From positions 14,943,425 to 15,007,424 of the forward strand of contig JARUPZ010000002.1 of NCBI GenBank assembly GCA_031213475.1: a stretch of 64,000 bases of DNA, read 5' to 3'. Source of the stretch: Nereocystis luetkeana. Taxonomy: Eukaryota; Sar; Phaeophyceae; Laminariales; Laminariaceae. How positions within the stretch are numbered: the first letter of the stretch is position 1; the number at the start of each line of letters is the position of its first letter. The notes under the pieces were generated by a model. It did not search any database, was not told where the DNA came from, and saw only the letters and a program-made list of their open reading frames with translations. Positions 1 through 60,400 of the stretch are shown here, piece after piece. The translations under genes were made by a program, and so were the position numbers.

Positions 1-3568
<3,568 letters not shown>

Positions 3569-14500: not shown

Positions 14501-17500
14501 TTAAAGCCTATAGTCCAAAGTCCGGTAAACCCGTCGGCCTGGCGGTGCCGATCGTCGCTCTTCGAACAGACCCCCCTTCGGGGGCTCGTGGGGCCGCCTG
14601 ACGACCAAGCTCAGAACTCCGTTTTCCTGCCCGCGCATCGTCAGCTGTACCGCCTGTCGAATACAGCGCAAGAGTTAGGGTCGATGCAGCGGTGGGGGGA
14701 AGAGGGGTGGGCAGGGAGGGGGCGAGAGACATGCAATGAGAGCGGGTGTCTCTGTTGTAGCAATCGTAGCAATAGTCGAAGCTGCACAGCCTCATGCTCG
14801 ATGGGCGTGACGTCCCTCAGACACTCCCCGAGCGTGTCGGAAGTCAAGCCTCGGACGCGCATTCTACATTGAAGCGATCGACCAGCCGACCAAGCGACCG
14901 ACCGACCGAACGACTGACCGACCGACACACCGACCCTCTTCCAGCTCCCGCCGTCCAGCAGCTCGACGAAAAACCTCATCGCCCCAATCGACTTGCACCC
15001 TCTGCATCCCCTTCCTGCTCCCGCCCTCCCTTCCAGGTGCCACCCTCCAGCAGCTCGACAAGCAAGCCCCCCGCTCCCATCTACCCCCACCCCCTTATTA
15101 CCCTTCCTGCTGCCCCACCGGTCGACTGACCGACCGACCGACCGACCGACCGACCCACCCACCCATCCACCCACCCCCGACCAGCCGACCGACGCGTCGC
15201 CTCGCGGTTATTATAGAGGCAGTTTTATTCCGGCTTATCTTCTCCTTACCATACACGAACGGTGGGCTACAGATGGTTCCCTTCTGCGTACAACCTCGAG
15301 CTCGCCCTTCCGCTTGTTGCATATATTCGTCGTAGCCGTAAAAACAGTATTAACGAGACGACGTATAATGGTGAGACGATGTTGACTCAACCGTCCTGAA
15401 CTCCCTCCCAGCTGCAAAGAAGAGCGGTTTATCTGCTTCCAAGCTATGCTGCAGGTATTTATATATCTATACATAAATACCGGCGACATGTGTGGTAGCT
15501 TCATGGACGTAAACAAACAAGGGGTTCCGTGCCCGTATTTCGGCGAAAAATGAGGCAACGAGAAAAGGCAACTCTTAAAGAATTGGCGCGCACGTTTTTG
15601 GGTACAAAGCACTTGAACTTCGCGTGGGACATTTTTGGTAGCATGGCAAAGAAAGGGTGAAGGTTCCTGTCGTACTCCCTCCTCCCTTCCCCAGCCCCCC
15701 CCCCGCCCTTTTCGAAACGGTTATCGGCTTATGCTTGTATCGAAACGCGCAGTCGCTTTTTTTTTCTCGATTGATTTACGAATGAGAAGCTCACCTGGTC
15801 GAAGTTTCCCAACACGTGAAGACCATTGACGGACACGAGAACATCCCCAACTTTAAGACCCGCATCCAGAGCGGTGTCATAGTTGCCGTCGAGCGACGAT
15901 CGGTACGCGCAAACTGTAGCCTGTTTATTTTATTTGCGGCAACAGAGGCGAAGAGGGTTAATCTCGTACGTGCATGGCAGGTAAGTACGTGATCACATGC
16001 ATACTTCGTACAAGTTAGTCAGAAGATTATTTCAGTGAAAAACTGAGGAGCAGTGGGAATGTTGAACTGAACCCCATGATCTGCGTAATAGGAACCAAAC
16101 GCATGTGCCTGCGGGGGAGGGGGGGGGTACTCGATAGGAGAGATGTACTCGATCTCATGCATAGTCGTAGTCGTATGACCATAGACCCTCGCATCCCTGC
16201 GATGCCGGGAGGTACGGTAGAGAGCACCTGTGACCGCCGCTTGTATGTCTTAAGTTGCCGAGCGCTAAATAAGTCACGTAGGCTGAGATGAAACATAAAA
16301 ATGACGATAAAAACAACAGCTTATGATGATGCCTGGTACAATTTTTTATCGTTTTACTTCGCTTCATGCCTTCTGAAAAGGGGGCGCTCCTCTGGGTTCT
16401 TGAGTTTTGTTTATGTGTCATTATAGTTGTATTTCCTCATGCTCTTCTGACCTAGGAGTACAGGAGGGCTCGCCAGTGTGTACACAAAACTGGAACAAAG
16501 TGTAAATTCCTTTCACTCATGTATATTCCAACGCGTGGTTGGCCGTGATTCCATAAAAAAGCAGCACTTTTCGTACAAGGAGAAGGTCGGTGAAAGACGC
16601 GGGGTGAAACCCGAAGCTTTTCGGAGCAGGAAAAACACGAGGGAGCGACCACGCCCGTGGCGGTGATTCAGCAACCGGAACGTGCAGCAAGCTTAAGCGC
16701 AGCTCGGGTGGGATCTGTAATTACAATCGAAATCCTGAAGCTTGAGCACCGTAGCCAAACCATACTCGCCCGACACTAACGCGAGCGCCATTTAACCCCC
16801 CCCGCCCCCACCTCACATCCCTCACCCGTCCCCGCCCTTCAGCTTCCCTCTTTGCCCCCCCCGCACCTTCCCCATCCCTCCTCGCTCCCCCTCCCCGCCT
16901 CCCCTACCCCTCCCCGCCTCCTGCAGGAACGAGAGTATGGGCAACGTGTTTGGCTTTAATTGCGCACTGTGGCGGCTTCTCTCTTACCATGCCCTTGTTG
17001 TTCACGAGCTTCATGCCCAACCCAGTTCCTGGCGGGGCTTGCAGCATCAGTCGGACTTTGTTGTAGCCTGGCAATGGGCGGTCGACAGGGAAAACGTAAG
17101 GAAAAACGTCAAGCCTGGCACTGTGCCGTTAGCAGGCGAAAGCCTGCCCGGAAACAGGCGGTAGTTATACACTCTGGTCGAAATTGTAAAAATTGTTTGG
17201 TGTTACTATTCAAGTTTAAATGATCTTAATATTCCGTCCAGCGTAGTTGATGTGATGATATATTGTGCCGTTATTGTCCATGCGACGGCTCCTGACAAGG
17301 GAAAATATGCAGAACGATGACCAGACGAGGCCAAACCGAACAGGACACAAGAAAAGCCACGAGAGAAGAACAGGGGCATCGCCTGGCCTGGCCGTGTTTT
17401 TTTCGTCAGCGTCTTGATCGACGGAAAAAATGTTGGCACGGGTAGACATCGATCATCTCAGGCCGCGCAAGTAGAATAATATATGCACTGCAGGAGACGA

Positions 17501-18635
17501 TTTACGCGTTGCAAGCAAGCGCGCTATCTTTATAACAACGTACGTGTGTACTGCTGTGTAGCTGTCGTAGTGATATACCAGGTATACATATATGTACTCA
17601 CGAGCTCTTCTCGCCACCGCGGCACGTACGGCGGACACCGTCATCGCTCGCGAGTCCCTCCCTCCTCCGGAGCCCCCGGTGGGCCCCGTTTGGCCCCCGC
17701 TGGACCCCTTGGCCGCTCTTCGATCTCCTCGGAGCTCGGCTCCGCAACCGCTTACCGGTGCCGCGACAAGCTGGTCCTTCGGGTTGTCAAAGCTGTCTAC
17801 CCTTTCCATCGTCTCGATGTCGTCGACGAGTTGATCCTTTCCGGTACCGGTAACGGTAACGGTGACGCTTGCCGGTTGATGAACCACACCATCCAATTTG
17901 GCCACCGTCTTGTCTGCCGGCGTTTTGCTTGTGAGTTTCTTCCTGAAGATTGCCGCGGGGGGCGTCTGAGTAGTCCGGCTGGCGGCGCGTGGGAAGGGGC
18001 GGCGGTGAAGGATGAGTCTCGGAGGCGGGTGGGGCGGAGACACAAAGGGAGACTCCGCCACAAAGGAAAGCCGCTGGGTCGAAATTTCAAGACTGACGCC
18101 GTGAAAGGACGCGTCGCTCGCGGGAAGCTGCGCTGTCGATGAGTTTGACCTCGACGTCTTCCTGCCGCATTTCTGGCACGCCGCTGAAGAAGTAGCCGTT
18201 GTCGCTGCTGGACCCCCCGCCCCTGTTATCGCGCTGGAAGCAGCCGACGCCTTCCTTCTGTCGCGTTTGGCGCCCGCTGCCACCGCCGCCGCCGCCGACG
18301 CAGTTGCCGCCGCCGCGGCAGACACGGCCGACGCAGCGGCTGACGCCGCAGGACTCGCGCTAGAAGAAATTGGGGCTGCGAGCGCTTGCTTTTTCGTCGA
18401 GCTCTCAGGCGCTGGTGAATGTGCTGCTGGTGTATCATCGGTCAAACTATTTCGGAGAGACGGTGCGAGTGGTAGCGGCGGCATGGCGCGATTCTTCGCC
18501 ACTTTCGGAGATGAGCGCGTTAGCCGCCCACGGGTGAGAGCAGCGCCACCGCTGCTGCTGCCGCTGCAGTTGCTGCTGCCGCTGCCGCTGCCGCTGCCGC
18601 TGCCGCTGCCGCTGTTTATGTCACTGCTGCTACTG

Positions 18636-18670
<35 letters not shown>

Positions 18671-21600
18671 GCCGCTGCCAGCCGGGACAACCATCACACT
18701 TTTCGCGTGTACCGCAACGGGTGGGGGTTCCGAAGCATCGCGAACCTTACGTGGTTGTGGTGCGTTCGTCCGCTCTCGTCCGCCGGCGACAGCGGGTCCC
18801 CGCCCTGCTGAAATCAAAGGCGGGGTCGTTCGAGCGCGGCCGCGGACGGTGGCCTTCCCTCTCAGGAACACGTCCGGGACAATGACGTCGTGGCGTCCGG
18901 TGCCACCAGCGTAGGCAGAAGATGAAGCATTTAGTGTGTTCTGTGTAGTCGTCACCTCTAGGGATGCGCTTGCTAGCCCGAGAGCACGGGTCTCTCGCGC
19001 AGAAGGAACGGAAGAAGACGAAGAAGAAGAAGAAGAAGAGGAAGAAGTAGAAGAAGAGGTGGTAGAAGTACTAGAAGAAGCAGCAGCAGTAGATGAAGAG
19101 GAGGAGGAAGAAGACGAAGAAGCAGAAGAAGTCGTCGCCGCCGCTGCCGCAGCAGCAGCAGTAGTAGCAGCAGCAGTAGCAGCAGCAGTCGCCGTTGCAG
19201 CCGACGTCGAAAACGGAGAGGGCGACGAATAACGCCATGTCGAAGGAAAGTTTGATCTGGATTCGTCTTTTGCGGTGACCGTAGAGGGCAAACATGAACC
19301 CTTACGCAACGTTCCTACCGTTCCCACGGCGCCTGGCAGTCGCGGTGGCATGCGCGGCGCCGGAGAACGGAGCGCGAGCATCGGCAATCCCTCCGAAGCG
19401 CGAGGGGCGCCATCCGTTACGAGCACAAACTCGCTCGCGCCTACCAATCCGTTGAGCTGGAGGGCGTGCCAGAGTATGGACGAAGCGCGCGCGGCCGATG
19501 TGGGACAAGAAACTGGACGGGTTAGCGAGGGGGGGAGATCCGGGTGGTGAGAGCCAATGGCCATGTTGACTCAACCTAGCTAGCAAGGCATTTATTAAAA
19601 ATCACGATTAAACTGCTCCCCCCGCGCCCTCTTTTCTTCTCGTCGATGGTACGGCGCGCACAAACCTCCCGTTCCCACGTCGTTTTGAGCTGAAGAAACG
19701 TCTCGCTATTGCGGAACTGCATGAAGGCCCCTCTCTGGAGCAAGTCCGAAACCTCGACGAAGGCCTCGGTGAACATTTCCATCGGCGGTGCAGCACCCGC
19801 GGCGACACCCGCGAGGCTCTCTGCCTGCCTCGAGAGAATGGCTTCTCTACCCGCCGCGCTCAGGTTAACCTTGCGGTGCCGCAAAACAATGTATAAGGTC
19901 GTAATTGCAGTGACAGGAGGAAGGGAGGGGGGGGGGTCAACTCGTGCAATGTCCTCAGAAAGAAAGAAGATCATACAAGCGCGCGATTGCAGTTATAGGG
20001 GGGTGGGAAAGTAGTCGAATTCCGTATCCGCAAACAAGAAACCAGATGCTATGCAAGAGCGCGATGGCAGTCAGGGTTGGGGGGTGTACTGGATATCATG
20101 CATGGTCGCAGTCGTAAGGCCATAGACCCTCGCATCCATGCCAGGACGAAGCACGTTGGGTTTTTACCGACCAGGCAGACATCGCGAGCACCAAGCGCGA
20201 AGCGCCGTGAAGTGTTGGGCGAGTCGCATGAAGGGTGAGCTGCATCACTCTAAGAACCGCTTGTGAGGCGGACTGGCACGTGGATGACAGCTTCAACGAG
20301 CGAATTTATCTGCCGGCGTGGGTACTGCGTGACTGCCTCGTGGGTTGGGTTGACGTCGGTTGGCAGCGACACAACAAAACATTATTCTCAGTACGTGAGC
20401 TAGACATCCTGGGTACTGTTTTTTTTCGGCGGTCGGTCACAGCTGGCGATCGAGTTATTGATCATTTGTGCGGGGCGGGGAGCCTTCGCTCCGCACGAGG
20501 GGAATGATCGCATGACGTGGTGTTCATGGTAAACCACCCACGCCGGAAAACGGGGGGCATGATTGATGGTCACCCGGCAGGTGTGAGGGGTGGTCATGTA
20601 ATGTTATTGTGTGGTGTGGCTGGCCTGGGGTTGGACTATCTAGCCAAGGAACTGTACAAAGACACGGCGCGCGTCCTTTCAAGGGGCTAACAAACGACAA
20701 AAGTCGTAAATAAATACAGAGGGGCGTAGAGCGGCGCGGATAATCGTTTTAGTTTTTGCGGCAAATGCAAATGAAAAGCTGAGAAAGAGCGTCTCCTTCC
20801 ACTCGCAAAAAAATGTTTGACGGAGGGAACTGCAGGTCTATTCTATACCTGGATGAACCTGGGCCGGAGAGGCAGCACATAAAATGGGCTCTGTCGACTA
20901 CTGTAGCAATTTTAATTGTGGTGCGACGTACGGCAACGGTGAGGTGAGGCATGAAAGGGCGACCGGGGGACCTTTGAGGAACTTTAAAACTAGCTTTGCA
21001 CGTATATTTGAACATTTGAGCTGCAGAAGAGCTCGGGAACATGGCGTTTCAAGCGACAAGACGAAGCGAAAAACAGCGACTCTTCTTGTCCTTTAAGCTT
21101 TGATGCGTCTCCGCACCGTTCTTCTGGCACACACTCATTCCAACCAAGAGCTTCAACGGAACCCACCAACCCACCCATCGACCCACTCACCCACCCACCC
21201 ACCCACCCACTCACAGACCCACCCACCTGCTCAGCCCCCCCATCCATAACGAAACGATCCACGATGTCCTGCCCTGCGGCGGCAGCCGCCGCCGTGACCT
21301 CGGCGTAGCTAGCATCGTGGCTGTCGACCGCCGCCGCGCTTGGCTCGTGGCAACATAGCGCCCGGTAGGATGCAACGGCCTCCCGGAAATTGAGGTTCTC
21401 GACGGCGTGACGGGTACTGTACAACATCAAATGACCGTTTTCGAAGCAGTTTTTTTGTTCGCCGCTTTTGTTGTTAGAAAATGTACACAGTTCCCGAGGA
21501 GGAAACACTGCTGTGTGGACCATTTACGGGTATACAAGTACGTAGGAATCAGGGAGTTATCCCACCTCGTGGTTTGCGCTGCGGTTGAGGTTAGCTGAGC

Positions 21601-24600
21601 GTGATGTCTAGCTTTTGAGCGTATCATTTGCGCCCTAAAAAAAACCGGCCGGGGGTGAGGCGAGACAGTCTCCTGTATGACACACACGCGCTGGGACGTG
21701 ATCTTTCGTATGATGAAAGTTGGACTCCCGCACGTTGTCGTGGCAATCGATGCCTACTGCTATGTTTAGCACAGCAAGAGAGCCGTTCGTCGCCTTTTGC
21801 TAGTCCTAGTCATCTCCTCCCTCTCTCCATTCCTTCTTTTTCCATGCGACTACTACTATCAGCAAAAAATACCAACTGCATGCACCGGGGGCTATGGCAT
21901 ATAGTGTCGACGTTTTCGTTGAAGAATTCCGATGCATGGTCAGAATCGACGAGGCACACTCACCGCAACAGCTCACGAAACCCCGCAAGACACGCGGGGT
22001 TCGCGAGGGCCCTGCGGAATCCAACGCCCCCACTCCAGACCTCTTCCGTCGACGGAGAGTCGAACCTAAGTGTCGCCCACCGCGTGGCCTGCGATTATAT
22101 CATATGTTATGGGATGGAGTACAGTCAGGTGCACATTGCGCTTCGATGACAGCAAACACTGAACAAGCTGTACTACGTACGCGGCCCGGGCATGCCCGTT
22201 TGCTTCCTACCACTCGTCTACGCGACGGCTCCACCGCTGCGAGCAAGGTAGTCGGGGCAGGTTTCCACGTCTGGCAAAATAAATAAGGTGCTGCTGTACC
22301 TTTGACAAGCTGTCGGTATGTTCCTTCAGACTGAAGACGTTTAAATGGTGCTACGTATATACACCCGGGTTCCTACCCCAGGTCTGCGCGAAAGACGCAA
22401 GACGGAAACGAACTGCGACATGTTTTTACCTTGTCGCCTGAGCTGCAAGGCGCCCAGAAAGAACACTCTTCCAACTTGGGGGGGGCGCTACTGCTGCTGT
22501 TGCTGTTGCTGCTCTCCATCTCTTCCTCGCAGGCATCTCCACTGCTGGTGTCACCTCTTCCCTCGTCTCTGTCTGAGGGGAATACTTCCGGGTCGCTTGC
22601 GCCGCCGCCGCCGCCGCCGCTGCTGCTGCTGCTGCTGCCACCAACGTTGTCACCGGTGGCACCACGGGTGGCACCACTGGCTGTGCCTCCACCAGAGTGA
22701 TCTCTGCCGCCGCCGGGTGCACCACGACCGGTGGTCTTTTGGTAGACGAGGCGGGCGACCGTTCCCTGCCTGCTCCATACCGCCCTCTTGCAAATAATCC
22801 CCTTCCGTTTTCCCTGGCCCCGGCCCTTGCCAAGCCGAGTGGATCGCGGTGGTGACGGCGGCGTTATTGCCTCCTCCTGACTAGCGGAAACGACCTCGCT
22901 CGCAACGGCGTCTATCTTGCTTGCGACCGGGTCCCCGGATGACGAGCAGGGGGACGATGGCGGCGACCAGCTTGATGCGCTACCCCGCTGCTTGCCACCG
23001 CGGCCGCCGCCGTCTGCTGCCGGTTCACCGTCGCCACCGCCGACGCCGTGGGTCATCTTCGCCGTCGCTTTTTTCGTCAGCGCAACGTCGTCGGCCGAAG
23101 CTGTAACCCCCTTCTTAGAGATGGTTTGTCCGGTCAGCTCGTCGCTAGCGCTGTTTCTTGTTTTCGTTTAGGGTTTCAAGGTTTGGTTTTGGTTGGTATT
23201 TGGAAGCGAAACGAAAGCGCGCGCAAAACGGGGGGCTAAGTGAGGTCCTTCAGCAGTAGTTTGCGCGTGGAAGGTGCAGGCTTGCGGCGGTGTCGCCGTT
23301 TTTGTTTTGAGTCGATGGCCCTCCGGTTGTGGAGCGAACGCAGTCAAAACGTTAGCTGTAAAACCTTCCTCGCTCGGGTCAGCATCAGCATCGCCCTCAG
23401 AAACATATTCCAACTATCATTCACTTGGACTTCACCGGCGCGGGGGGGGGGGAGGGGAAGGGAAAAGCTCAAATGGTGAAACCGGTGTCATCGCTTTACC
23501 TTGAGCTGGATGTTGTCACCGACAGTACAGGTTCTGACCCACACGACAACAACCCGTCCATGGTCGCTTTCAAGGCGGCCACCCACTCGTTCTTTTCGGC
23601 GACATCTGTCGCCTGCGTGCAGTGAGAAACACGTTTGACGAGTGGGGGCGCGGAACAGGGCAGGGTAGCGTAGAAGTGGTGCAGTAATTCCATATGGAGA
23701 GGGGAAAGAGAGGGGCATCATCCGGTCTCTTGACGCCTCGATGTCATTTGTTTTTGGTCTCAAGATAACTGGATAGTCTAAGATCAAGAGGAGTTGTTCG
23801 ATGCAACGAGATTGTTTCCACGTTTAGATCTGCGGTTGAGCTGAATGAAATACTTCGTACACGTACAAAAAAAAGAGCTCTCGCACGGGATCTGGGCGGA
23901 CGAAAGCTATGCTTGGTGGCGTATAGTCCCTGGTTCCAGACGAGAACGAAACAAGTAAAAAATAAACGAAAACAACCAAAAAACAACTCCGCCTGAGAAC
24001 GATTTTTCGAATAATTACGCTGCTGTGCCCGAGCCACCTCGCTACATAGACCCAGAACAGGAATCGGTGCAGCCTCACATTCTAGTCTTGGTCGAGAGGC
24101 GCTACCGGTAGTCAGTAGAGCTTACCACTCATTCAAGATTTGGTCTGATGGGCTTAGGGTCAGGGTCAGGGTTAGGGATTGGGTGACGATTAAACCAATT
24201 CATCTCGTACACAATGTGTATGAACCATGTTTCCGGTAGTCTCGCGATAAAAAGGTGAAGGAGGAGATGGTCACACTGGCAGGTGCGGAGTTCGAGCGAG
24301 TTACCTCTATCGAAGGAGATCGATGTTCAGCGTTCAGCGCACGAAAAAATAAATACCGCTTCGATAGACACTACTCGGTCTCGTACGCAAAGCACACCAG
24401 CCGCACCTTCACCATGAATGAACTGCCGGCACACGCCACCACGAACGACGAGTGAAGGGGGGCGTCGAAACCGTCTATCACGAAGCAGTGCCTGCACGGG
24501 GAAGAATTAGGGGGTGAAACCGAAAACAACAACAAGCGGTCGGAACGTGTGCGTGCTCGTTCCACTTCGGCGGCGTGTGTGCCTCGCGCAGGTGTGTAAT

Positions 24601-27600
24601 TGTGTTTTAAGTCTCTGCTGGCAACCCTCTCCGAAGGGATGGCAGGTGGTCAACCGAGGAGATAGGGGGGGGGCGGTGTACTCACAATCATGCATGGCCG
24701 TAGTCGTACGAAGTATGGCATTTAGACCCTCGCATCCCTACAATGCCTTGGCGGAGCACGTCGGGTTTTCGCCGACCGGGCAGACATTGCTTGCACCAAG
24801 TGCGAAGCGCCGTGGGGTGTTGGGCGAGTCGCATGAAGGATGAGCTGCATCCTACTAAGAAACGCTTGTGTGGCAGATTTTCTTGTAGATGGATGACAGC
24901 GTCGAATAATTGATTTATCTTCTGGTGTGGCCACTTCCAGATACAGCAATGGGTTCACTATGTTGCCTCGAGGAGGCTTTACCATATACACACTACATGA
25001 TACGACCATCCCCCTTGTACGGAGTTAAGGTCCTCTCCGCACCAAAACGATCTAACTCGACCGCCAGTCGTGGAGACCGCCAAAGACGAAACAACGCTAC
25101 CCTGGTAGTCTAGCTCACGCAGTGAGAGGCGTGTTTTACAGCCTCGTCGCCAACCGACGTCAACCCCAACCTATATATATGTATATATGTACCAAGTATA
25201 TAAAATAGAGGGGGGGAAAGGGACAATAATATACTTAAAAGGCATTTTGTTGTGGTGCTCAAAACAACCCAAACATTTTAGGAGAACCCTTTGCGCTGCG
25301 TTGGCCGGCCTTTGGACGCACACAAAACTATAGTACAGCAGCACATCCCGTATTTTTGGCCGATTGACTCCGTGTACATTTGTTGCAAAATTCTGCGCGG
25401 CATCACGGAAAAGAGGAACCCATCCCCTCGAAAAAGCGCAAAGAGCTCACCCCAGAGAAACAGAGCCGACGCCGCGGTGGCGACCGTTCTGCGGACCCTG
25501 CTGAGCCTGCCCGGTAACGCCTTCGAGGGAAGCATGGAACAGCTCGTCAGGGTAGAGCACGAAACGGATCGACCTCGGCCCGTCCTGGCATATCTGCAAT
25601 AGACACGAGAAAAAAGGTGCAGGGGCGGAACAGGCCAGACGGGTCGCGTAACATTAACAGTAGCATATCCTCACGGGGTCGACAATCTTGGAGAAACCTA
25701 ACGATTCACCCGAACGTCTACCAAAGAGTTGACTTGTCCACCGCATTTTATCTCCCTCTTCCCAGCTGCTGCCCCCCCCCCCCTTCCCCCGCTATGCATG
25801 AGATCGAGTAGATCTCTCCTACCGAGTACACCTCTCCCCCGCCTCGTTTCCCCTCCCGCTTCCCAGCTTCTGCCTCTCCCACAGCCCCCCCCCTCGGATC
25901 CCCCACGTCACCGATTTCCTCATTACTCGCTGTTGTGTATGCCGCTCTTGATGTGCGCTTTCGCTTTTTTTTTTCCGTGCCTCGCGTCCTTGTCTCTTAC
26001 CTTGGCACGCCTCGCTCGCACCCCGCAAGCATAGAGGTGCACATTGTTTCTACTGTATTAAATTAAACAAATCAGACGGGTTTTTCGATAGTGGTATGCA
26101 CGAATGTGCTTTTTTTGGGAAAAACACGATACTTCTGCCCGAATGTGTTCCTCAAACTAAGAAAACAACCCAACATCGCCGAAACTGCAGTACCGTTCTG
26201 TGTTCAAAGACACATATGTATACTCTCGGTGTATTGTTTGTCTTGAGGCCATCGCATTGCTCATCGGTATCTTGCGCTTTTTCATGATTTTTTTTTTTTA
26301 AATCTGACATCAGTTTTTCATACCGTTTGGTGTTTTGACGAACAGACGGTGTATACCTACTGCAGTACGATGATGGGACTGTTCTATCGCATAAAATCAT
26401 TTTTTGGTGGTTTCCTTTTTTTTCTCTCACAAAGTGAAGCCAGTTGTTATTTTGGGGTCAGGTTTATTTAGTCTGTTAGATACATATACACAGGGATCGT
26501 AAAGGGTGAAATCACTGGACCTTCAGAGCAAAAAAATACTAGGCACATACCTAATGCCGCGGTAGCATGCGCCCCCCCCCCCCCCCCCTCCCTTCTCGGC
26601 ATACTTCGTAGAACACACTAGGACCACTACCCAGCGCTACCAAAAATACCTTTGTCAGGCGTCCCTCTTTGATTTTAGGCCGTGGGGTGGCCATTGACGC
26701 GGGCAGATACCCTGGACCATTCACCGCCTTTTTCACCGCAAGTAGCCAGAGAGAACACGCATTAAGAGAGAGAGAGAGAGAGAGAGAGAGTGGCGTCGTT
26801 AGGGTATATATATATATATATATAGCATGGTGGCACGCTCCTAAATAAGTGGACGCGATTGTGGAGGCCAACCCCGCGACACAGCGCGGGGGATTTTTTT
26901 TGTTTCGTTTTGCCGGATACGTAGGAGGCACGCTAAGATATACCTGTGGTAGCATACTATAAATACTGTTTAGAACCCGCACTATGGAGTAGTGACGAAA
27001 AAAAAACTGAAATTAGGCGTTGCAATCAGGGGTAGTAATATATCGGCGTCCCCGGTGGCTTGGTGGGTGGTCCGCGTGCCTATCAAGATCAATTTCGTGG
27101 AGTTCAAGCCTCACCGAGTGCATGCTCGTAGGGATTTTTTCTTGCATTAAAAAAAATGATTAGCGGAAAGCGCGAGAGCGTGAGTTAGCTACATTCAATG
27201 AAAATCAATGAGCAGTGGGAATGCTGAACCCTATGCGCGACAGAAAAAAAGGCCCGTACCCGGGGGGGAGAAGGGACGACACCTGTGACCACGGCTTGTC
27301 CAGAAGATCGCTGAGGGTAAAACCTCTTACGAATTTAGACTGGATAGTAAAAGTGATTTATATATATATATAAATATATATATATGGGTTGTAACTGCGG
27401 CCGTGCTACGATAGGGGTTGCAATTAGGGGCTGCGCTTTTTAAGCCCAGCGATTTCCCACTATGGGCGGGCTCTTCAACTGAACAAGCTACTTCGTACCC
27501 CCTTTGGGCGGAAATAGAAGGATCGTTGGGTCTTTCCTTTTTCTCCTGTTTGTATGAACGCTCCCTTGTTTTTCCGCTTCCCCCCCCAAGCACCGGCGGG

Positions 27601-30115
27601 TTTTTGCTGCGCGTGTGACCGATGCCGTAACCTTCACAAACATTTCGTCGTCCCTGTTGGCCCCAAAAGGAACGCACGAAGAAGAAGCACTCGGCAAGAC
27701 CGCAAGCCGGGGACTCCCCACGCACGCCTGTCTTGCTTGCTAGCTTGCGGGTGCGTGGATTCCATCGGCGCACAAAAAAAAGGCGCCGGCCGTTCAAAGA
27801 CAAGAGGGCATTCATTGTGGCGTGGACACGCGCTTTAAAGTGGCGAGAACTGGTGCCCTTACATGCGCGTCGAGTCGCCAAGGTGATAACGAAGAGAGAT
27901 ATATAAGACCACGCGCAGGATGGAGCTCCTCGTGAACACAAATTACAAAATCGATGCGAACCGCTTTCCGGGGCAACAAAGCGCACCAAAACAAATACCG
28001 TTTCCGTTTTGTTGACGCAACAGCTTGCTTTGTCTTATATATTTCGCGTGCGACATTGTTTTTGCTCAGGTGAACGCTTCTCTGGTTTATTTAGCCCGGC
28101 TTGTGGTTTTTACTTTCATCAGCACCCGCGGAGGGAGCAGCCAAATGGCAGCCCCGATATTGACTTATATGTGGAACCTGCTACAATGAGCAACTTCTTG
28201 ATCCTGACATATATGGCCGAGAGACGCTCCCGCCTCTTAATCGAAGGACAAGGTGCAAGGCCCCACACACCTTCATTGCCCCCGAACAACGTCCGTATCC
28301 ATGGCTCTGGCTGAGGGCGGTCCGATGCATGGCCGCGAACGGTATGTTCAGGCTCTGAGCCAGCTCTCGGTGCAACACCGCGAGGTGGGGCGGGCAAGTT
28401 TCCACGGTGGATTCAACAAGCACACGGTACTGCGCAACGCGCTGCAATGCGGAAAGGAAGGAGTGCAAGGGTAAGACACGATGGCTTGTTTTGACGAAGT
28501 TTTCGGCTGAATCGTTCTTGGGAGGAAAGCGTAGTTTCGAGCTTCGGCTCGCAGCTAAGACCCTCCCTGGCTGTTCTGACCAACCCTTTACCGCGCGCGC
28601 TGTACTGCATCCATCCGGAACTGTTTTAGCGCCCGGTTTTACGTGCAGGCACGGGGAGATTACTCTGAGCCAATCGTTGATTAGCAACTTTCACCTCGAT
28701 AGAAAATTGTTCTTATCGACGACGCAACGGCGTTTTGCCCGTGGTGCAAGCCATGATTAAAGCGCTGCGTTCAACCGTCATACCTGTGAAAGACCACTGC
28801 AGTATTATTTCGAGCGAATGCGAGTATACTACAGTAGTTTAGACGGTGTCAAAATGTTTCGAGATGGCTAAAGCGACCGACCGGCCGACCGACCGATCGA
28901 CCGACCGATCGACCGACCGACCAACCGACGGGTCGATAACGCGTCCAAGGTGACGTCGGTGACATATTCTGCTGCACGAGCTCCTAGCGACAGCTTATAG
29001 CATCTTGTACGGCTAAGCGTCGAGTAAATAATTTTCCGCAGACAGGAAGAAGCCCCCAAAACAATACCGTTCATGAGGAAACTAACACCTGCAAGGGCAT
29101 GGCGAGGAGATCCTTCAGATGGAGCCCTCCACACCTCTCCTGGAGCTCGCATGCCCTGAAGAACATGGCCACGGGCGGAATCGCCTCCATACGGTTTAGG
29201 CACTCCACTCTCTTGTTCCAGCCCGCCATGAACGCATCGTACACCTGATTTTTTGCATACATACAAAAAAGAGAGTACAGCGTTTGCGACATGTGTAGCG
29301 TGGTATAGTTTTTGGCGTGTATATGAACCTTACCGGTGACGACGACCGCTGCGAAGGAGGTGCTGCGGCGTAACAAACGCAGAGAGATAATATGGTGTCG
29401 TCGATTAGACGACCGACCGACTTCACGCCGTACAACGTTTATGGTTAGCTCTCTAGCTGGCTCGAGCTGGCTCGAGCTAGATCGACAGAGAGCTCGCGTG
29501 GTCCCTGGGAGTTTTGTCGTTGTGGAGCTTGAAAAAAACTCACAGGGCTAGACAGGAGTGTACCCAAAAGCTTCCCATTATATTAAATTCAACCAGTTGT
29601 TGGTGAATCGGGACTGTTTCTAAATAATGAAATGGGAATTGTCTGGACCCACACATTTGGGGGGGGAGGGAAAGGAACAACAACACAATCCTTGAGGTAC
29701 TGGTATGACACAATATGTGGTGCAAGTAACCCACATAACGCAGGAACCCACGCGAGGTCGTATTTCATGCCCATCTCAACGGCAAGTAAGTCTATACAGA
29801 GCGGCGATGACATCCATGCGCGTCGAACCGGAGCTACTACTAGCAGAGGCGTTTGTTTGTGTTTGCAGTACAAAACATCTACGAAAAGAACCGACGGTGC
29901 TACGGGGTAGTAAAAACGTCGATTCATCCCGATCTTGAGGGGGGAAATATCCAGCCAACCAAAAGAAAATTCAGGAAACAACCACGAACCTTGCTTACCC
30001 TTCTTAGAACTAAACTGCTGCACCCGCTATGGGGGGGCGACAAGCAATACTTGGATATTTGTCTGGCAGTGTAGGGTAAAAGGTTTGAAATAATAACAGA
30101 GGCAGTAATGCACGG

Positions 30116-30160
<45 letters not shown>

Positions 30161-32285
30161 CTATACGAAGTATATACATACACGAATGGGGGAAAAAAAA
30201 CTGCCACATTCCTCAAAGCACCAGTCAACGAGATGGCCAAGTTTGCTGTTGCGAGACCAAGGAGACAAGGGAGTTCACATTGCCAAACGGCATTAACTTC
30301 CGGACACACACCACGCGTTTTTCGTCACCCTGTCATTTCCACCTCGTTGACTTTGCACCCTCACCTTGAAGGAAGTGGCAAGCTGGAGGAAAACGACGAG
30401 CATGGCTCTTGATCTCGCCACGCGCACCCTCTCGAGCGCCAGGAGTAATCGTCTGGGTGATGTGAGTGTTCGGCGGCACGTCGGGTTGGGGGGTGGGGGG
30501 GGACTCGTGAAATTCGGCGAGCTTACTTGTTGCTCTCCCTTTCACCCTACTGTAGCTTTGCGCTGGTGAATAGAATCTCCAAACGAATCGCCCCGTACGA
30601 GTACGCACGATTCATCCGAATCGGAAAATAAGTAAAATAATGTTGGGTGTGTGCGACAATAAAAATCGGTGTATATACTGATATCAATATCGTGTGCCTG
30701 GAGGAAATCCAACTATTAATACTGTAGTTCACACTATTAATAATTTTACAAATTATTGCGGGGGACCGTGGTAATCAGGACCAACTATGCTCAGTAAAAA
30801 AACTGCAATATATTTTTTGTGTGTATGATGAGTCCTGATTACGAATATTTATGTCCCCCGTAATAACTTGTCGCGAAAAACGATTGGGGTGTGTGCTCCT
30901 TTTTCATCCTGCTGTATATTCGCCATTGCCTTACTTCCGCTGTTGTTAATGAACACATTGTTTCGATCTCGGCCTCAGCATCATTGTCCTACCCATTCAT
31001 GACAGCGGCCAGTAGGTTGTTGTACGTATTGCATGCGTATCGTGTGTCTGCTATTACAACTTGTTTCACAATGTATTATACCTCAAGACTTTCGGGCAAA
31101 ACATGTACCAGGGTACCAGGTACCAGGTGTGTGCTACTACCACCGTAGCTGAACATATCCTTCGAAGTATACGAAAAGGACGTCGTCAGCAGTGCAACGG
31201 GGAGTTTACATTACACACACACCAGTCTATACGTTGCGTCGTACTTACATGCACCTGACCAGCACCAGGTGTTTATGTATGAACCAAGTGGTGTGTATTT
31301 AGAGCTTATCATGCGTGTGCATGAACATGTAGCAAACACACCTGCTGAAGACGACGAGCTCGTCCAAGTTGGAGAAAACAAAAGCAATGTCCGTTCGGGA
31401 CACCGGACAACCCGTCCCGGCCCGATCGGCATCTTCTTGTTGCTCCAGCCACCGCACGAGCGGTGCGTGAAACACATCGACCAACGTCTGCGCACGAAGA
31501 AGACACCACGCATGCACGCCAGCAGCGGGAATCGATCGGAGTGAGCAACGTGCAGTAGGAATTACTCTTCGTAGTACGTAAACCTTCCCACAAAATGATG
31601 TACATACATACATCATACGTATAAAAATGTGCTTGGATAGCCATTCCCGAAGAGATAGATACGTCAGTTGGTGTAAAACGGAACGGCTGATCTGCATTTG
31701 GTACCGAACTCGACACAGAACCACGGATACAAAGCGCGTTGTGATGCTTACAGACACCATTATTATAAGCCGCCAGGGGACGCAACAGGTTGTCACCATG
31801 GCGAGATGTATCCGGCTTGAGAAACATCAGCATACAGCGGCGTGGAAACACATACGTACGGCGTACTTGTAGCACGATACACACCTGTGAAGCAGATTTA
31901 AAGTTGAAGCAAGAATTAATTTTGTCTTCCTGTGGTTGTCCGTAGTCTTCACGTATGTGCGCAGCAACTGCTACTGCTGTATGTACGCAGTGGTGGACAG
32001 CGACAAATACGCCAAGTTACACAGTAGTCGAACGCAAAACAAACAGCAGACGCTACACCTCCATATTCTGCTTGCTCTCGCACTCAGAGTGGCCCTTTAT
32101 ACACGCTTCATCACCTGCATATTAGTCAGAAACTTTCGCTCGTCAAGAAGGAGCTCGTCGAGCATCGCGTGGTGACACCCCCCGGCTTGAAAAGCAGCAG
32201 CCCACGAATCTCGCCTTGTCGCGGTACCGCCGATCGCACGCTCCGACTGACCATGTCCGTCGTCGGTGCTTGGACAATTGCCCAT
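14501..32285 (-). CDS. DH-PH-RGS-PDZ multidomain signalling protein (RhoGEF), 17 exons
   Basis: Exons, 5' to 3' on the minus strand: 32285-32115, 31487-31342, 30452-30365, 29244-29089, 28441-28271, 26727-26605, 25593-25451, 24491-24413, 23612-23500, 23150-22430, 22040-21964, 21416-21227, 19869-19666, 19456-17602, 17067-16988, 15920-15795, 14653-14501. All junctions are GT-AG with matching phase; the sum is 4596 bp, 1531 residues plus TAA. The start MGNCPSTD fits N-myristoylation. DH spans about residues 38-228 (AMLDELLLDERKFL; LAMPLQRVAQYRVLVE is the conserved 'PvQR..Y' helix). PH spans about 267-390 (IKEGRLTKV; RFVLYPDELFHA; C-terminal helix EKNEWVAAL). RGS spans about 640-790 (AVENLNFREAVASYRAL; VNLSAAGREAI; FMQFRNSETFLQL). 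A Ser/Ala/Gly homopolymer linker covers 795-1412. PDZ spans about 1416-1502 (GTGLGMKLVNNKGM; VGDVLVSVNG; LSLVVRRP). Inferred role: membrane-anchored exchange factor for Rho/Rac-type GTPases under G-alpha control. Least certain are the acceptors at 22040 and 19456. Confidence 0.85.
14654..15794 (-). repeat. Last intron of the DH-PH-RGS-PDZ gene with GACC-type tracts
   Basis: The intron contains (CCGA/GACC)n tracts at 14878-14936 and 15119-15178; the second grades into CACC repeats. Related GACC tracts occur at 28868-28935 and 56636-56664. Nothing else is recognised. Confidence 0.7.
16030..16310 (+). mobile_element. Degenerate tRNA-SINE body with a nested family A fragment
   Basis: The flanking parts match the SINE body (GAGCAGTGGGAATG near 16050; CACCTGTGACC..GGCTTGT near 16227) seen at 27045 and 38501. 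Between them, at about 16110-16210, sits a reversed family A 3' end (GATCTCATGCATAG, CCATAGACCCTCGCATCC). This indicates insertion of one repeat into the other. The whole lies in an intron of the DH-PH-RGS-PDZ gene. Confidence 0.6.
16795..16925. repeat. C-rich polypyrimidine tract in an intron
   Basis: About 130 bp are almost purely C and T on the plus strand, with several C runs of 7-8. It is purine-rich on the coding (minus) strand, so it is not a polypyrimidine splice signal for that gene. Confidence 0.8.
20090..20560. repeat. Rearranged family A copy (3' half inverted relative to 5' half)
   Basis: Positions 20090-20312 carry the family A 3' half in reverse orientation (CATGCATGGTCGCAGTCG; CCGCTTGTGAGGCGGAC). 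Positions 20342-20560 carry the 5' half in forward orientation (GGTTGGGTTGACGTCGG; ATCATTTGTGCGGGG). The composite lies in the intron between the second and third RGS exons. Confidence 0.7.
21150..21226. repeat. (CACC)n-like tract
   Basis: Imperfect CCCA/CACC repeats end exactly at the donor site (minus strand CAG|GTGGGT) of the middle RGS exon. Confidence 0.7.
24150..24183 (+). repeat. Short interstitial telomere-like repeat
   Basis: The tract reads TTAGGGTCAGGGTCAGGG followed by TTAGGG. It is a short variant array in an intron, with no chromosome end nearby in the window. Confidence 0.45.
24679..25171 (-). repeat. Family A repeat, near full-length copy (reverse)
   Basis: The reverse complement spans from CATGCATGGCCGTAGTCG to CGCCAACCGACGTCAACCCC. 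It lies in the intron between the second and third PH exons of the DH-PH-RGS-PDZ gene. Confidence 0.8.
26765..26823. repeat. (GA)n followed by (TA)n microsatellites
   Basis: (AG)n covers 26765-26790 and (TA)n covers about 26806-26823. Both lie just upstream, on the minus strand, of the first PH exon. Confidence 0.9.
27045..27355 (+). mobile_element. tRNA-derived SINE, copy 1
   Basis: The element starts GGCGTCCCCGGTGGCTTGG, an A-box-like tRNA head (TGGCTTGGTGGG), with an eroded B box (GAGTTCAAGCCTC). The body carries TTCTTGCATTAAA, GCGTGAGTTAGCTAC, GAGCAGTGGGAATGCTG and CACCTGTGACCACGGC. It ends next to a (TA)n tract. The copy at 38501 is very similar. It sits in an intron of the DH-PH-RGS-PDZ gene. 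Confidence 0.75.
27357..27386. repeat. (TA)n microsatellite
   Basis: An AT dinucleotide tract lies at the tail of SINE copy 1 and may derive from its 3' tail. Confidence 0.85.
28868..28935. repeat. GACC/GATC tetranucleotide tract
   Basis: Imperfect GACC and GATC units run head-to-tail within an intron between DH exons. Confidence 0.85.
30119..30157. repeat. (TA)n microsatellite
   Basis: About 19 uninterrupted TA units lie in an intron between DH exons. Confidence 0.95.
30756..30863. mobile_element. TA-target MITE, copy 4 (diverged)
   Basis: This 108 bp hairpin starts TTGCGGGGGACCGTGG and ends TGTCCCCCGTAA, with TA flanks. It is more diverged than copies 1-3. It lies in the intron between DH exons 2 and 3. 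Confidence 0.8.
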
Positions 32286-48700: not shown

Positions 48701-51700
48701 CTGCCTGTTCGGCAAAAACCCGACGTGCCCCGTCCCGGCATTGTAGGAATGCGAGGGTCTTTACGGCCATGCATGATATCGAGTACACCCCCACCCCCCC
48801 TACACCCCCCCCTACACCCCCTGCTCCGTCTCGAAAGGGATGCGTGGTCAATGATCAAATTGCTGAGGCAGGCAACAAATAAGACCCCCGCCCTCCCCCC
48901 CATCTCGCCAAGGGGGGATGCCGGGGTGCTGTTTGAGCCGATAGACTCCAAGATGACGTTGTCGTCGGGATTGTTTGTTGATTTGTTTGTTGGTCCGTTT
49001 GCTCGTGTCTTTGAAAGTTTTCAATAACAAAAAAATATGCTGTTGAAGGGGGAAATGCGCTCTGCTGACCGGTACAAGCTGTAACAGTGTGCCTGTGGGA
49101 TGCGTGCACGAAATCCCCCTCGCTCGTATTCGGCGGCGGGGCAAAGCCTGAAATATGCCGAGACAAACCAAACGTGTGTCGCGGAAGTTCTTGTTCGACT
49201 CGGGGGCGACACGAGCGGCTTTGACAATCTTTGTCATCGCGTCCACGCCGCGCAGCTTGACTCTGACACTCTATCGTTTCGACTTTTAAGCATCTAAAAA
49301 AATGGCACGGTACAGTAGTCCTTGTGAGGAGCGAACGCGGTGCGCGTGGGACAGTTATTGCTGAATCAACCAGTCCTCTCGGCGGGCGACGCCATATGCG
49401 CAAGTCTTGGTTTTCACCGTTTCGTGCCCCCCGCCCCCATCCCCGCCTAAGGACTTGATGCATAGTTGCGTTTAAACCCGCTTATTTGTTCTCGCCTTCC
49501 ACACTCTGTGCATCGTTCTCTCCCGCCGGTTCCGGTTCGCGCGTGGTTTTTGCTCCTCCTCGTACTTGCAATGCACCTGTGAACGTTTGCCTCGTATTTG
49601 TGGTGCAACGCTGCAACGCTGCAACGTGCTCTCTGCTATGTTCCGACCGCGGGTGGGCGTCTGACAGGAATCGGGGTCGGAAAACTGGATCGGCATGGTG
49701 TGCCAGCAGACGTCGCCCGCCGCGATCGCCGAGGCGGCCATCGAGGACGCCAAGTTCGTGTGCACCCGACAGTACGGAGACGCGCCGGACGTGACCCTCC
49801 ACGGCAGGCTGGACCTCACCTTCTCTTGTGAGAGCTTGCACCTCTGAGAGCCGGCCGGCGACCGACCACGCACGGTGGCTCTCCGTTCTGGTGGTTTCTA
49901 GACCGGTCCAGGAGCACAACTGCTCGGGAAACGCTTTTTCGAGAGAGTCTTATTGCTCTTTGTGGTTTGTTTTTGCCATCTGTACTATACACCTGACGTT
50001 TACAGTGTTTTTCGTTGCGAACCTGGTGCCACAAGGGTATCTAGCGCCTCGATCACTCCGTGCGCAAGACGCTCTGCGCCTGCATTTCATAAGCCGCCAG
50101 CGCCGGTCGCCCTTTTGGGTGCGTTCGCGGCAGGCGGCAGGTAGCAACTTGACGTGTGGTCTGTTTGCTCGTCAGTTGGAAGAAACAGTGGGGCCGTCAG
50201 TTGGGGTTCACGAGTCGGTGGGAGGTCAAAACACCCCTAGTCGCCTGGTTCGTGTATTGTATTCGGGCGCGAATCGTTGCGAAGAGGCGCCCGCAAGGAA
50301 GCCGCCCAAGGTTGTATCAGGCAACCACGTTACGCGCGCACAGAGCGAGGTTTGAGCGGAAATGACAAAAGTGCTATACAGCCGCCTCCCGCATGAACTC
50401 GTGGTTATGCGTGCATTTTGCGGTGACCGCTGCTGGTCGATCGCGGTGGCCTCCTCTCTTTCGCGGCGTGGTCACGACACAGTTTTATGCCCGGCCAGTG
50501 GATGGGACGGCCGACTGTCGTGCGCGACATTTTTATCCAATGACCCGCCGCGCACTCACCTTGCTGACTCACCGCCCGCCTATGCTTTATTTCCTGTGCG
50601 CCCTGTTGTGGTTGTCGCTCTGTGATCCCAGACGTCCCTTCGCACTTGCACTACATCATGCTCGAGCTGATCAAGAACTCGATGCGAGCAACGGTGGATT
50701 TTCATGGGCTTGATGAGATGGACAACAACCCCATCCGCGTGGTCATTGCGGACGGAGAGGGAAATGAGGTAAGCAGGACAGGGCAGGGAGGAGTTTCGGT
50801 TAGCGTGGTACGACACGTCTCAATCGGTTGCTCCCTCCCCCCTCCCCCGTTTCCCCACGTGTCTTCGGCATCCGGGGACTGGGTTTTACACCCTCGCCCT
50901 TCCCAACGTGACGCGCGTTGGCCCTGCTCTTCGCCCGTTGCCCCTTTCCTATCGGCTAGGACGTCGTGATCAAGGTTGCAGACGAGGGAGGTGGGATCCG
51001 TCGCTCGTACATGAACCGCATCTGGAGCTACCTCTTCACGACCGCCGACCCTGCCGTTCAAGAGGGCTTTATCAACCTTGGCGAGGTCGAAAGCGACCAC
51101 TCCAAGGAGTCTCCGCTCGCCGGCCTGGGGTGAGAGCGAGTGGCGGCACCCGTGTGGGTTTATTCGCACGCCCTCCTTTTTTTTTCAGAAGCGCTGATCG
51201 TCTGGGTGTGTTTTTGTCGGGATGGCGGCGTGGACCGTGGTCTTGCCCCCCCCCGCCGCTTGCTCCTACACGGTGCATTTTTTGGCTATGCGACGTCGGG
51301 GCTCTGCGACGGCGGGGTTGGTGTATTTCAAACACACCACTGGCCTACGTGTAAACGCGCCGCCATCTACTCGCTGTGTCGAAGCGTTTAAATTTCCGTT
51401 GAATGGACCCGCGCTCTGGTCCCCGATTGATCTGTACCCGACTGATCTGTATCCCACTTGCTCCCGCACGGGGGTCGGGTGTGACCTGCGTCTTGTTGCT
51501 CTCTTGCCTGCATCTCTCACCCGCTCCTAGCCCTCATCCCACACATTAATCGAATCCTCCTCCCCCTTTCTCGTCAATTCGCCCTGATTTCAATGAATTC
51601 AACCCAACGCTTATCTCCTTCGCCTCCTTGTTTGTAGCTCCCGTTAGTTTAACCCCGATGCCCCTTCCCGCACGCATCTTTGCAATATACCTCCCCTGCA

Positions 51701-57400: not shown

Positions 57401-60400
57401 TATTATTGCGGTTTGCCTTGCCAGATGTCTTCTGAACGAAGGGGCGAGGCGTTCATCAGAAAAGCAGGCGATAACGCCTGCCAGGTACGATGAGGAGACG
57501 ATTGCTACAAACCATAACGCCGCAACAGGGGAAAAGGGATACCGTAACACTAGCCCACCCTGAAGGGTCGTATATGCAGATTGATAGAAAACTCAGGCAT
57601 AAACAAAAATAATCCGGAGAATTTGGAGAATGGATCGAAGAGGCGGCACTCCACAACCCACTCCAACACCTCTAACTTGCAAGGCTGTGGCCGAATACCC
57701 GTGGACACTGCGAATTCAGACAACAACAACTTTGACAGTACCGATACGCGTTTGAGAACCTTGGCACCGGTACCAGATTTCGCACCCTGGCGAATGGTGG
57801 CAGCGGTGTTGTAGATCCATACCCAGCTACCGATGGTGTAGGAAGGGCGTTGTTTGAAGGCGTCTGAGAGCGCTGAGTTACGGCGCTCCACGCGAGAGAA
57901 TTCAGACAACAACAACTTTGACAGTACCGATACGCGTTTGAGAACCTTGGCACCGGTACCAGATTTCGCACCCTGGCGAATGGTGGCAGCGGTGTTGTAG
58001 ATCCATACCCAGCTACCGATGGTGTAGGAAGGGCGTTGTTTGAAGGCGTCTGAGAGCGCTGAGTTACGGCGCTCCACGCGAGAGACCGTGATAGCGTGTT
58101 GTTCGCGCACCAGCCCATACGCACGCCGTTGGCAGTCGGCGGCGAGGTCGCAGTATTCCAGTTGGTCGCGGGCGAGGCTTTGGTGGCCTCGGGCGTAGTG
58201 TTGTTCGAAAATGGTGAGGGAAAGGCGAGGGAGGCGATTCATGTGCACCTCAGTGGGGGCCAACCCGGTGGCGGCGCTGACGGAATAGTTGTAAGCAAAT
58301 TTCACGTGCGGTATATGGATGTCCAGTCGTCCTGGCGTTCGTTGCAGACAATCGCTAGCATTTGAGCCATGGTGTGGATAACGCGCTCGGCGCCGCCGTT
58401 GCCGTTGGGATGATAGGCGCTTGTGGTGATTTTTCGATATCCCAGAAGTTTTTACACGGCATGTGACAGCTTGGAGCAGACGTATAGTCCATTGTCGGAG
58501 AGAAGACTGACCGGACACCCCCGAAGAAGTATGTACCTATTGATTGAGATGTCGGCGGTGCCTTCAGCCGTGAATTCCGCAGTTGAGACGGCGTACATGG
58601 CGCGCCGGCTGAACCTATCCCATCCGTGAAGAGAAGAATGTAGCAGTTGCCTCGAGGCGTGACGGGAAGGGGGCCGAAGTAGTCAACGCTCACCGCGACA
58701 CAAGGGCCGGATGGTAACGGCAGAGAGAGAATGGGTCAACGTACCGTTTGTCTGGAAGACTTGCGCGCCTGGCATTGAAGGCAACGACGAAGCCACCACC
58801 GCGTGCAGATGCTCATGCCAATCCACCAACGAAAAACATTCGAGCATCGAGAGCGTTCGAGCGACACCGAGGTGACAGTAGGCGTTAGCATGGCAGGCTT
58901 GCATAATCCACGGACACATAAGCAGCGGGACGTAGATTCGCGTAGGCTCGTCGGCCAAAAGGCGGGCGGCACGTCCGCCAGGCTTGTAGGGGCAAGCCAG
59001 AGCGGGGGGGCGTCAACCCAAATTTGTCAGCGGAGAAAAAAAAACAGACCTCAAACAGGTACCAAAAGCGTCCTGCCGACGACGCCAGTATTAAGTATAA
59101 GGGCAATATGGACCTAGGGACCGACTGCTGCTAGCAGATTGATGCCTTTGGCTCTGTTCTGGTCACTCACACGAGGTGCTTGACGATGGTATAAGCTCTT
59201 GTATTATTGCGGTTTGCCTCGCCAGATGTCTTCTGAACGAAGGGGCGAGGCGCTCATCAGAAAAGCAGGCGAAAGCGCCTGCCAGGTACGCTGAGGAGAC
59301 GATTGCTACAAACCATTACGCCGCAACAGGGGAAAGATAATACCATAACATGAGTGACCAGAGCAGAGTTAAAGGCATCACCTGCTAGCAGTAGTCAGTC
59401 CCTAGGTCCGTACTGCCTTACACTTAACACTGGCGTCATCGACGATTGATAGACGCTTTTGGCACCTGTTCAAGGTCTGATTTTGTATCGCATATTTTCA
59501 ACGCGATTGACCCTTGTGAGGACTCAGGTGGCCGAAACGACAGGCGAAAATGGTGATAGCAGAATCATCAGTCACAAGCAGCAGCCGGGGGCGGCTGGGT
59601 TATGGGGGTTGGCATATACGCGTAATATGAGCAGGGCCTGAGAGTGGGAATTGCGTTCTGCGAACGCGTGCGGTGCATGACATTTGCTCTCCCCAGCTGC
59701 GGCGCGCTCACTCTTACTGTAGATGGTTGTTTTTTACAGAACTTTTTCAGTTTTTTTATTCGTCACTTTGCCCGCTGGTCGTAAAAATATTTTTCAACAC
59801 TGCTGTGAAATGTGCTTTACAAACAAGCACACCTCGGACACACGATCGATTCCTACTCGATGGTCTACAGTTTTTTTTAGGACAGATGTATTCCTGAGCT
59901 ATATGATCTACAGTAGCTCATGTTGCCGAATGGGAGCCGTGAAACCTGCAGTATCTAGGACACGACTTCTCGGGTGTGATATGTACTATACAATACAGAT
60001 CATCTACAACATATCATAACGACAGGGTAGGATCTAGATGATCTATCTGTAGATGATATATTTGTAGATGATCCTTCCGACGAGTACAAATACGCAACGC
60101 ATCTTTTGGGGACTAACACCGATTCGCCACGCAAGAACGATGATCAGGGATATTTAAGTACTACGTACACAAAGGTCGAACACGTTGGGTCCCCGCCAGA
60201 AGAGACAATACATGCTTCTGTAATTGATGTGAGCCATGCCACCGCCGTTAGACTTTACCGTGGTAAACACACTGGCTCTTTCTCTGTCGCGTCGAGAGGG
60301 TGCGCCCTTGACCCCTTCCGCATCAAATGCAAGCAAAACATGGTATACATAACAAAAACCACCATTTTCACTCATGCACAATACCGCCGCGCGTCTGTCT

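Follow-up and report, generated by a model that had tools for sequence, protein, structure and literature searches.

A predicted brown-algal RGS-RhoGEF with the domain order DH-PH-RGS-PDZ

Introduction

The animal proteins PDZ-RhoGEF (ARHGEF11) and LARG (ARHGEF12) combine four signalling domains in the order PDZ-RGS-DH-PH. In the animal RH-RhoGEFs (PDZ-RhoGEF, LARG and p115) the RH domain lies N-terminal to the DH-PH tandem, and in PDZ-RhoGEF and LARG the PDZ domain forms the N-terminus. The algal protein described here has the same domain set as these two (PDZ, RGS or RGS-like, DH and PH), whereas both its RGS and its PDZ domain are C-terminal to DH-PH. A first-pass annotation of the DNA had drawn this contrast with PDZ-RhoGEF and LARG. 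The difference in order stands, but the comparison was too narrow: RGS-RhoGEFs with a canonical RGS domain have also been published from Entamoeba and Naegleria.

P-Rex1 and P-Rex2 offer another animal comparison. They have an N-terminal DH-PH tandem with PDZ behind it, like the algal protein, and are under heterotrimeric G protein control, responding to G-beta-gamma and PIP3. They carry two DEP domains, PDZ domains (two in number) and an IP4P region, whereas the algal protein has one RGS domain, one PDZ domain and no DEP match.

The RGS-RhoGEFs of Entamoeba histolytica and Naegleria fowleri, which belong to other supergroups, resemble the algal protein in that a canonical RGS domain and DH-PH share one polypeptide and their hosts also encode G-alpha partners. 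The Entamoeba protein is described as binding activated G-alpha (PMC3499586). The Naegleria protein is described as binding G-alpha via the canonical RGS interface and acting as a GAP on it, and the same interface is said to apply to the Entamoeba protein, unlike the mammalian ones (PMC9283941). Unlike the algal protein, the Naegleria protein has putative N-terminal leucine-rich repeats, and the main text of that paper makes no mention of PDZ (PMC9283941). In 2012 proteins with RGS plus DH-PH were reported as exclusive to metazoans with amoebozoans as the sole exception (PMC3499586), and in 2022 Naegleria was added to their holders (PMC9283941).

Here we analyse a 64,000-nucleotide stretch of DNA from the kelp Nereocystis luetkeana (the window). 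We propose, with a probability of roughly 0.6, that one gene in it encodes a cytosolic, G-alpha-responsive RGS-RhoGEF of about 1500 residues with the order DH-PH-RGS-PDZ, its biochemistry being deduced from sequence.

Results

Relatives in protein databases

A search of 5.8 billion proteins, in which 7990 candidates were scored, returned three relatives, which we take as putative orthologues of the window gene. In two EukProt proteins, P0001 and P0002, the order of matches is RhoGEF, PH, RGS, PDZ, and P0003, a partial 'unnamed protein product' from Ectocarpus fasciculatus, shows PH-RGS-PDZ without DH. The architecture that the first-pass annotation had read from the DNA is therefore present in protein databases, twice in full and once in part: the order is the same in both relatives with an N-terminus and, for the remainder, in all three. 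P0001 and P0002 are closely related to each other, with 86% identity in DH-PH. All of these entries were already public, under no functional name. Two more searches, one with P0002's DH-PH segment and one with three of the four sequences aligned, each scored about 8000 candidates and among these gave only the same three proteins. When the three whole relatives were compared with Pfam, RGS was above cut-off in each, as was RhoGEF in P0001 and P0002, while PH (E 0.00026 to 0.072) and PDZ_6 (0.00022 to 0.00045) stayed under cut-off throughout.

Gene model

Exons were traced by eye in three-frame translations and then joined by script. The first-pass annotation had reported 17 minus-strand exons that join in phase, and both this and its outer coordinates (32285..14501) were recovered exactly. 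The refined spliced model encodes 1536 residues followed by a stop, the sole stop codon being the terminal one, against the earlier count of 1531, which may reflect another choice of splice site. All 16 introns are GT-AG with agreeing phases, the splice sites having been picked by eye to be GT-AG. The exon 11 acceptor was set at 22088 because the relatives carry the extra residues. The exons, with the evidence for each, are as follows.

32115..32285, minus strand: exon 1, ATG start (MGNCPS...) and start of DH helix 1; aligned with P0001 and P0002 from W28 onward
31342..31487, minus strand: exon 2, DH; 66-72% identity to P0001 and P0002 (tblastn)
30365..30452, minus strand: exon 3, DH; 81% identity (tblastn)
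29089..29244, minus strand: exon 4, DH; tblastn match and full alignment
28271..28441, minus strand: exon 5, end of DH and DH-PH linker; Pfam RhoGEF at residues 42-206, ending near 28385, tblastn and alignment
26650..26727, minus strand: exon 6, first PH strand (PRPKIKEGRLTK); 12-residue core identical in P0001 and P0002, without a tblastn match of its own
25451..25593, minus strand: exon 7, PH; tblastn match and alignment
24407..24491, minus strand: exon 8, PH; tblastn match and alignment
23500..23612, minus strand: exon 9, C-terminal helix of PH (EKNEWVAALK); Pfam, tblastn and alignment
22430..23156, minus strand: exon 10, low-complexity linker 1 with KLEECSFW at its end; alignment, without tblastn match
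21964..22088, minus strand: exon 11, start of RGS; Pfam, tblastn and alignment
21227..21416, minus strand: exon 12, RGS (VENLNFREAV); Pfam, tblastn and alignment
19666..19869, minus strand: exon 13, C-terminal half of RGS (VNLSAAGRE ... LLQRGAFMQF); Pfam, tblastn and RGS profile
17602..19456, minus strand: exon 14, long Ser/Ala-rich linker 2 with motifs MPPLPLxPSLR and SPPxxPPRL; tblastn, alignment and scoring of linker stretches
16988..17067, minus strand: exon 15, start of PDZ (GTGLGMKL loop); tblastn and alignment
15795..15920, minus strand: exon 16, PDZ; Pfam, tblastn and alignment
14501..14653, minus strand: exon 17, end of PDZ, C-terminus and stop codon; spliced model and alignment, without a tblastn match of its own

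With the three relatives as tblastn queries, 14 of the 17 exons are matched, in order and on one strand; for the remaining three the full alignment is good at exons 6 and 17 and weak at exon 10. The least certain points of the model are the exon 10 acceptor and the start codon. Specifically, the ATG of exon 1 lacks support from the relatives, where the MGNC start is not seen, and a TGA in the same frame precedes it by 9 bases. The MGNCPS start fits the N-myristoylation consensus, so that this modification is putative.

By region, the identity of the model to the relatives is as follows: DH 69-70%, DH-PH linker 45-47%, PH 52-62%, RGS 55-61%, PDZ 52-57%, first long linker 31-35% and second long linker 23-24%. 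Within linker 2, MPPLPLxxSLR is present in all four proteins; the ungapped stretches that contain it score 60, 55 and 57, compared with a best score of 51 in 60 shuffles, all of them made against P0002. Two further stretches of this linker, one directly behind RGS, score still higher in P0001 and P0002. SPPxxPPRL is aligned in all four proteins, with changes, and fits the PxxPxR form of SH3 ligands. Because the order is common to three database proteins, and because the domains are 52-70% identical where the long linkers are only 23-35% identical, a chance join of unrelated exons is very unlikely. The in-phase model and the order in the relatives thus strongly support the earlier proposal of a single DH-PH-RGS-PDZ gene.

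Domain content

Scored piece by piece against Pfam, the DH segment (RhoGEF, 75.8 bits, E 6.4e-21, cut-off 27.6) and the RGS segment (45.3 bits, E 1.3e-11, cut-off 23.9) are both above cut-off, far from the noise level that the first-pass annotation had named, for either, as a refutation of its reading. PDZ_6, at 35.7 bits and 7.4e-9, also exceeds its curated cut-off. The PH segment after DH is in the right position but scores 13.9 bits (E 0.078), under the cut-off of 25.1. PH was matched in all three DH-PH segments, the window's included, at E up to 0.1, with a best value of 3e-5. A whole-model scan, made on an earlier 1520-residue model and not on the 1536-residue one, placed RhoGEF, RGS and PDZ_6 above cut-off and left PH unlisted. 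Of the four signalling domains first proposed, DH, RGS and PDZ thus exceed their Pfam cut-offs in the window, while PH is weaker. RGS sits C-terminal to DH-PH, and PDZ occupies residues about 1418-1510 of 1536, i.e., the C-terminus. No DEP domain was matched at E up to 10 in the 1520-residue model, on a scan whose filters drop most matches above about 0.1.

A DH profile gave 33 PDB matches at E up to 0.01, the best being intersectin, P-Rex1, FGD6 and Vav, with ARHGEF1 and ARHGEF11 (the latter weak, E 0.0017) near the end of the list. In the QRxx(K/R)Y segment of DH the basic residue is replaced by Gln in the window gene, in P0001 and in P0002. The PDZ fragment matched true PDZ chains in PDB from E 0.0005 downward in the list; the top matches, four chains of a designed repeat protein, we take to be a repeat artefact.

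The RGS domain

Compared with PDB on its own, the RGS piece matched canonical RGS proteins weakly (best E 0.034), among 13 matches at E up to 1 that included some unrelated proteins. A profile built from the four RGS domains, with loop stretches cut in three of them, matched 24 distinct PDB sequences at E up to 0.01 (best 2.2e-5). All 24 are canonical RGS proteins (RGS1, 2, 4, 5, 7, 8, 10, 16, 17, 18 and GAIP), with the RH domain of RhoGEFs absent among them, and we therefore reject an RH identity for the algal domain. The identification as RGS rests on Pfam and on this four-sequence profile.

All four domains retain an E-N pair, a V-N-L segment and the Leu of the last helix. The Asp of the canonical 'KDSY' motif is Gly in the window gene but Asp in P0001-P0003; where the canonical domain has an Arg just ahead of the next Phe, all four have Gln. 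This Asp, the following Arg and the conserved RGS positions are contacts of RGS domains with G-alpha. Because both substitutions would fall on such contacts, the strength of any GAP activity may be low. P0001-P0003 have a long loop inserted within RGS. In joining a canonical RGS domain (45.3 bits) with DH-PH, of which the PH part is under cut-off, in one polypeptide, the algal protein resembles the protist type of RGS-RhoGEF known from Entamoeba and Naegleria, judged by sequence.

G-protein partners in the genome

The genome from which the window comes (465 Mb, 1987 contigs) has G-alpha exon matches at four loci, 14 in all; 5 exceed the cut-off, and in two the match is interrupted by a stop. 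The 14 control genomes yielded one G-alpha match, under cut-off. At three of these four loci switch I was legible by eye, and there it has the Gly that we equate with the one at which a change to Ser prevents RGS action in Naegleria. Exon-wise searches also found other DH exons at at least three loci, two of them seemingly identical, and at least one other RGS exon (on contig C7); because the gene described here was missing from their listings, the counts are lower bounds. The DH exons at L003 and L004, which lie on C11 and the short contig C1214, agree in score and in matched peptide, and C1214 may be a haplotype copy.

Ectocarpus is reported to have six G-alpha paralogs and to up-regulate Rac and a RhoGEF in female gametes; transcripts of G-alpha, Rac and RhoGEF are reported in brown-algal gametes (PMC3879662). 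Two further papers report a kelp RhoGEF, SJ19295, as up-regulated in female gametophytes at maturity (PMC8278619) and a GRK-like protein with an RGS-type domain in Ectocarpus (PMC3307776).

Discussion

How might such a protein work? The canonical-type RGS domain would bind activated, GTP-bound G-alpha, and this binding would recruit the N-terminal DH-PH tandem, relieve it, or both; DH-PH would then load GTP on a Rac-type GTPase. RGS may simultaneously accelerate GTP hydrolysis by G-alpha, which would make the relay self-limiting, and the PDZ domain, the proline-rich motifs and possibly N-myristoylation could place the protein at the membrane beside its partners. We read the protein as G-alpha-responsive because the canonical-RGS RhoGEFs of Entamoeba and Naegleria bind G-alpha and because the genome has G-alpha exons. 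Rac as the target is a guess from the literature. The fuller proposal, that the algal protein is a G-alpha effector and GAP as well as a Rac GEF, in a non-animal order, and that the relay so extends to stramenopiles, is more tentative, and we would put it at somewhat less than even odds.

The most serious competitor, though an unlikely one, holds that RGS is an off-switch only: the GEF carries RGS to the membrane, where it ends the G-alpha signal, and DH-PH is controlled otherwise, by G-beta-gamma, lipids or kinases, much as P-Rex is by G-beta-gamma and PIP3. The likeness of the RGS profile to canonical RGS proteins and not to effector-type RH domains fits this, as do the DH-PH-first, PDZ-later layout of P-Rex and the place of its DH domain among the best matches of the algal DH. 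However, both published protist RhoGEFs with a canonical RGS domain have been proposed as G-alpha effectors. Less probable again, by about half, is a loss of G-alpha binding that leaves the RGS fold to serve other contacts. The exchanges at two contact positions (Asp to Gly in the window gene, Arg to Gln in all four) and the long insertion in the middle of the relatives' RGS domains would be explained, but all four proteins share the E-N and V-N-L positions unchanged and the domain as a whole retains 55-61% identity. We think it quite improbable that DH is a catalytically weak scaffold, as the non-basic residue in its conserved QRxxY segment might suggest, since FGD6 has the same Gln and DH is the best conserved part of the protein (69-70%). 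That neighbouring genes were mis-joined, with DH-PH, RGS and PDZ encoded separately, is scarcely credible: the model derives from genomic sequence and P0001, with its DUF4787 part, seems to show that predictions in this group can fuse neighbours, but three database proteins have the same order (though P0001 and P0002 are close kin), exon 10 has linker motifs up to the start of RGS, and every phase fits.

For the G-alpha-responsive RGS-RhoGEF that we prefer, novelty lies in the arrangement. RGS-RhoGEFs as a kind are already known, from animals, Entamoeba and Naegleria. The first-pass annotation knew of no described DH-PH-RGS-PDZ protein, and none is among the matches listed, but a protist link from G-alpha to Rho is not new in kind. 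Among the literature matches listed we did not meet the DH-PH-RGS-PDZ order, a C-terminal PDZ domain or the brown-algal lineage. Judged by title and start of abstract, none of the top-ranked matches of the full-text searches, for example the best 20 of 128, 20 of 450, 15 of 3100 and 6 of 1727, concerned a stramenopile RGS-RhoGEF, a provisional result. If the proposal is true, a signalling link so far described chiefly in animals and amoebae would extend to brown algae, and the relay from G-alpha to Rho would be far older than thought or would have evolved again. A conserved stramenopile member with another domain order makes one ancient relay versus several inventions a testable choice. Brown algae would gain one concrete candidate link between G-alpha, Rac and RhoGEF, and in them the relay may be a driver of Rac-dependent polarity or of the interaction of gametes.

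Directly upstream of the RhoGEF gene, at 39916-35860 on the minus strand, three stretches match the N-terminus of P0001. This N-terminus consists of a DUF4787 part behind an apparent secretory signal, and is fused in P0001 to the RhoGEF part. Since the stretches that are fused in P0001 lie next to the gene here, the neighbourhood is shared. We think that DUF4787 in P0001 is more probably a gene-prediction fusion than a true N-terminal domain of the RhoGEF gene, because the apparent secretory signal comes with it and P0002 is without it.

Other features of the window were recorded in passing. At positions 1-3568 CTTG is repeated perfectly, head to tail, 892 times; this is a pure tetranucleotide array of great length or else a feature of the assembly. 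A frame at 57553-58536 on the minus strand, resembling a retroelement integrase by eye, contains a perfect duplication of 186 bases (57712-58085). By eye, frames at 62212-63998 on the minus strand resemble an RsmJ-type rRNA methyltransferase, a bacterial-type gene, and a plus-strand frame at 50568-50966 resembles an exon of a pyruvate or branched-chain dehydrogenase kinase.
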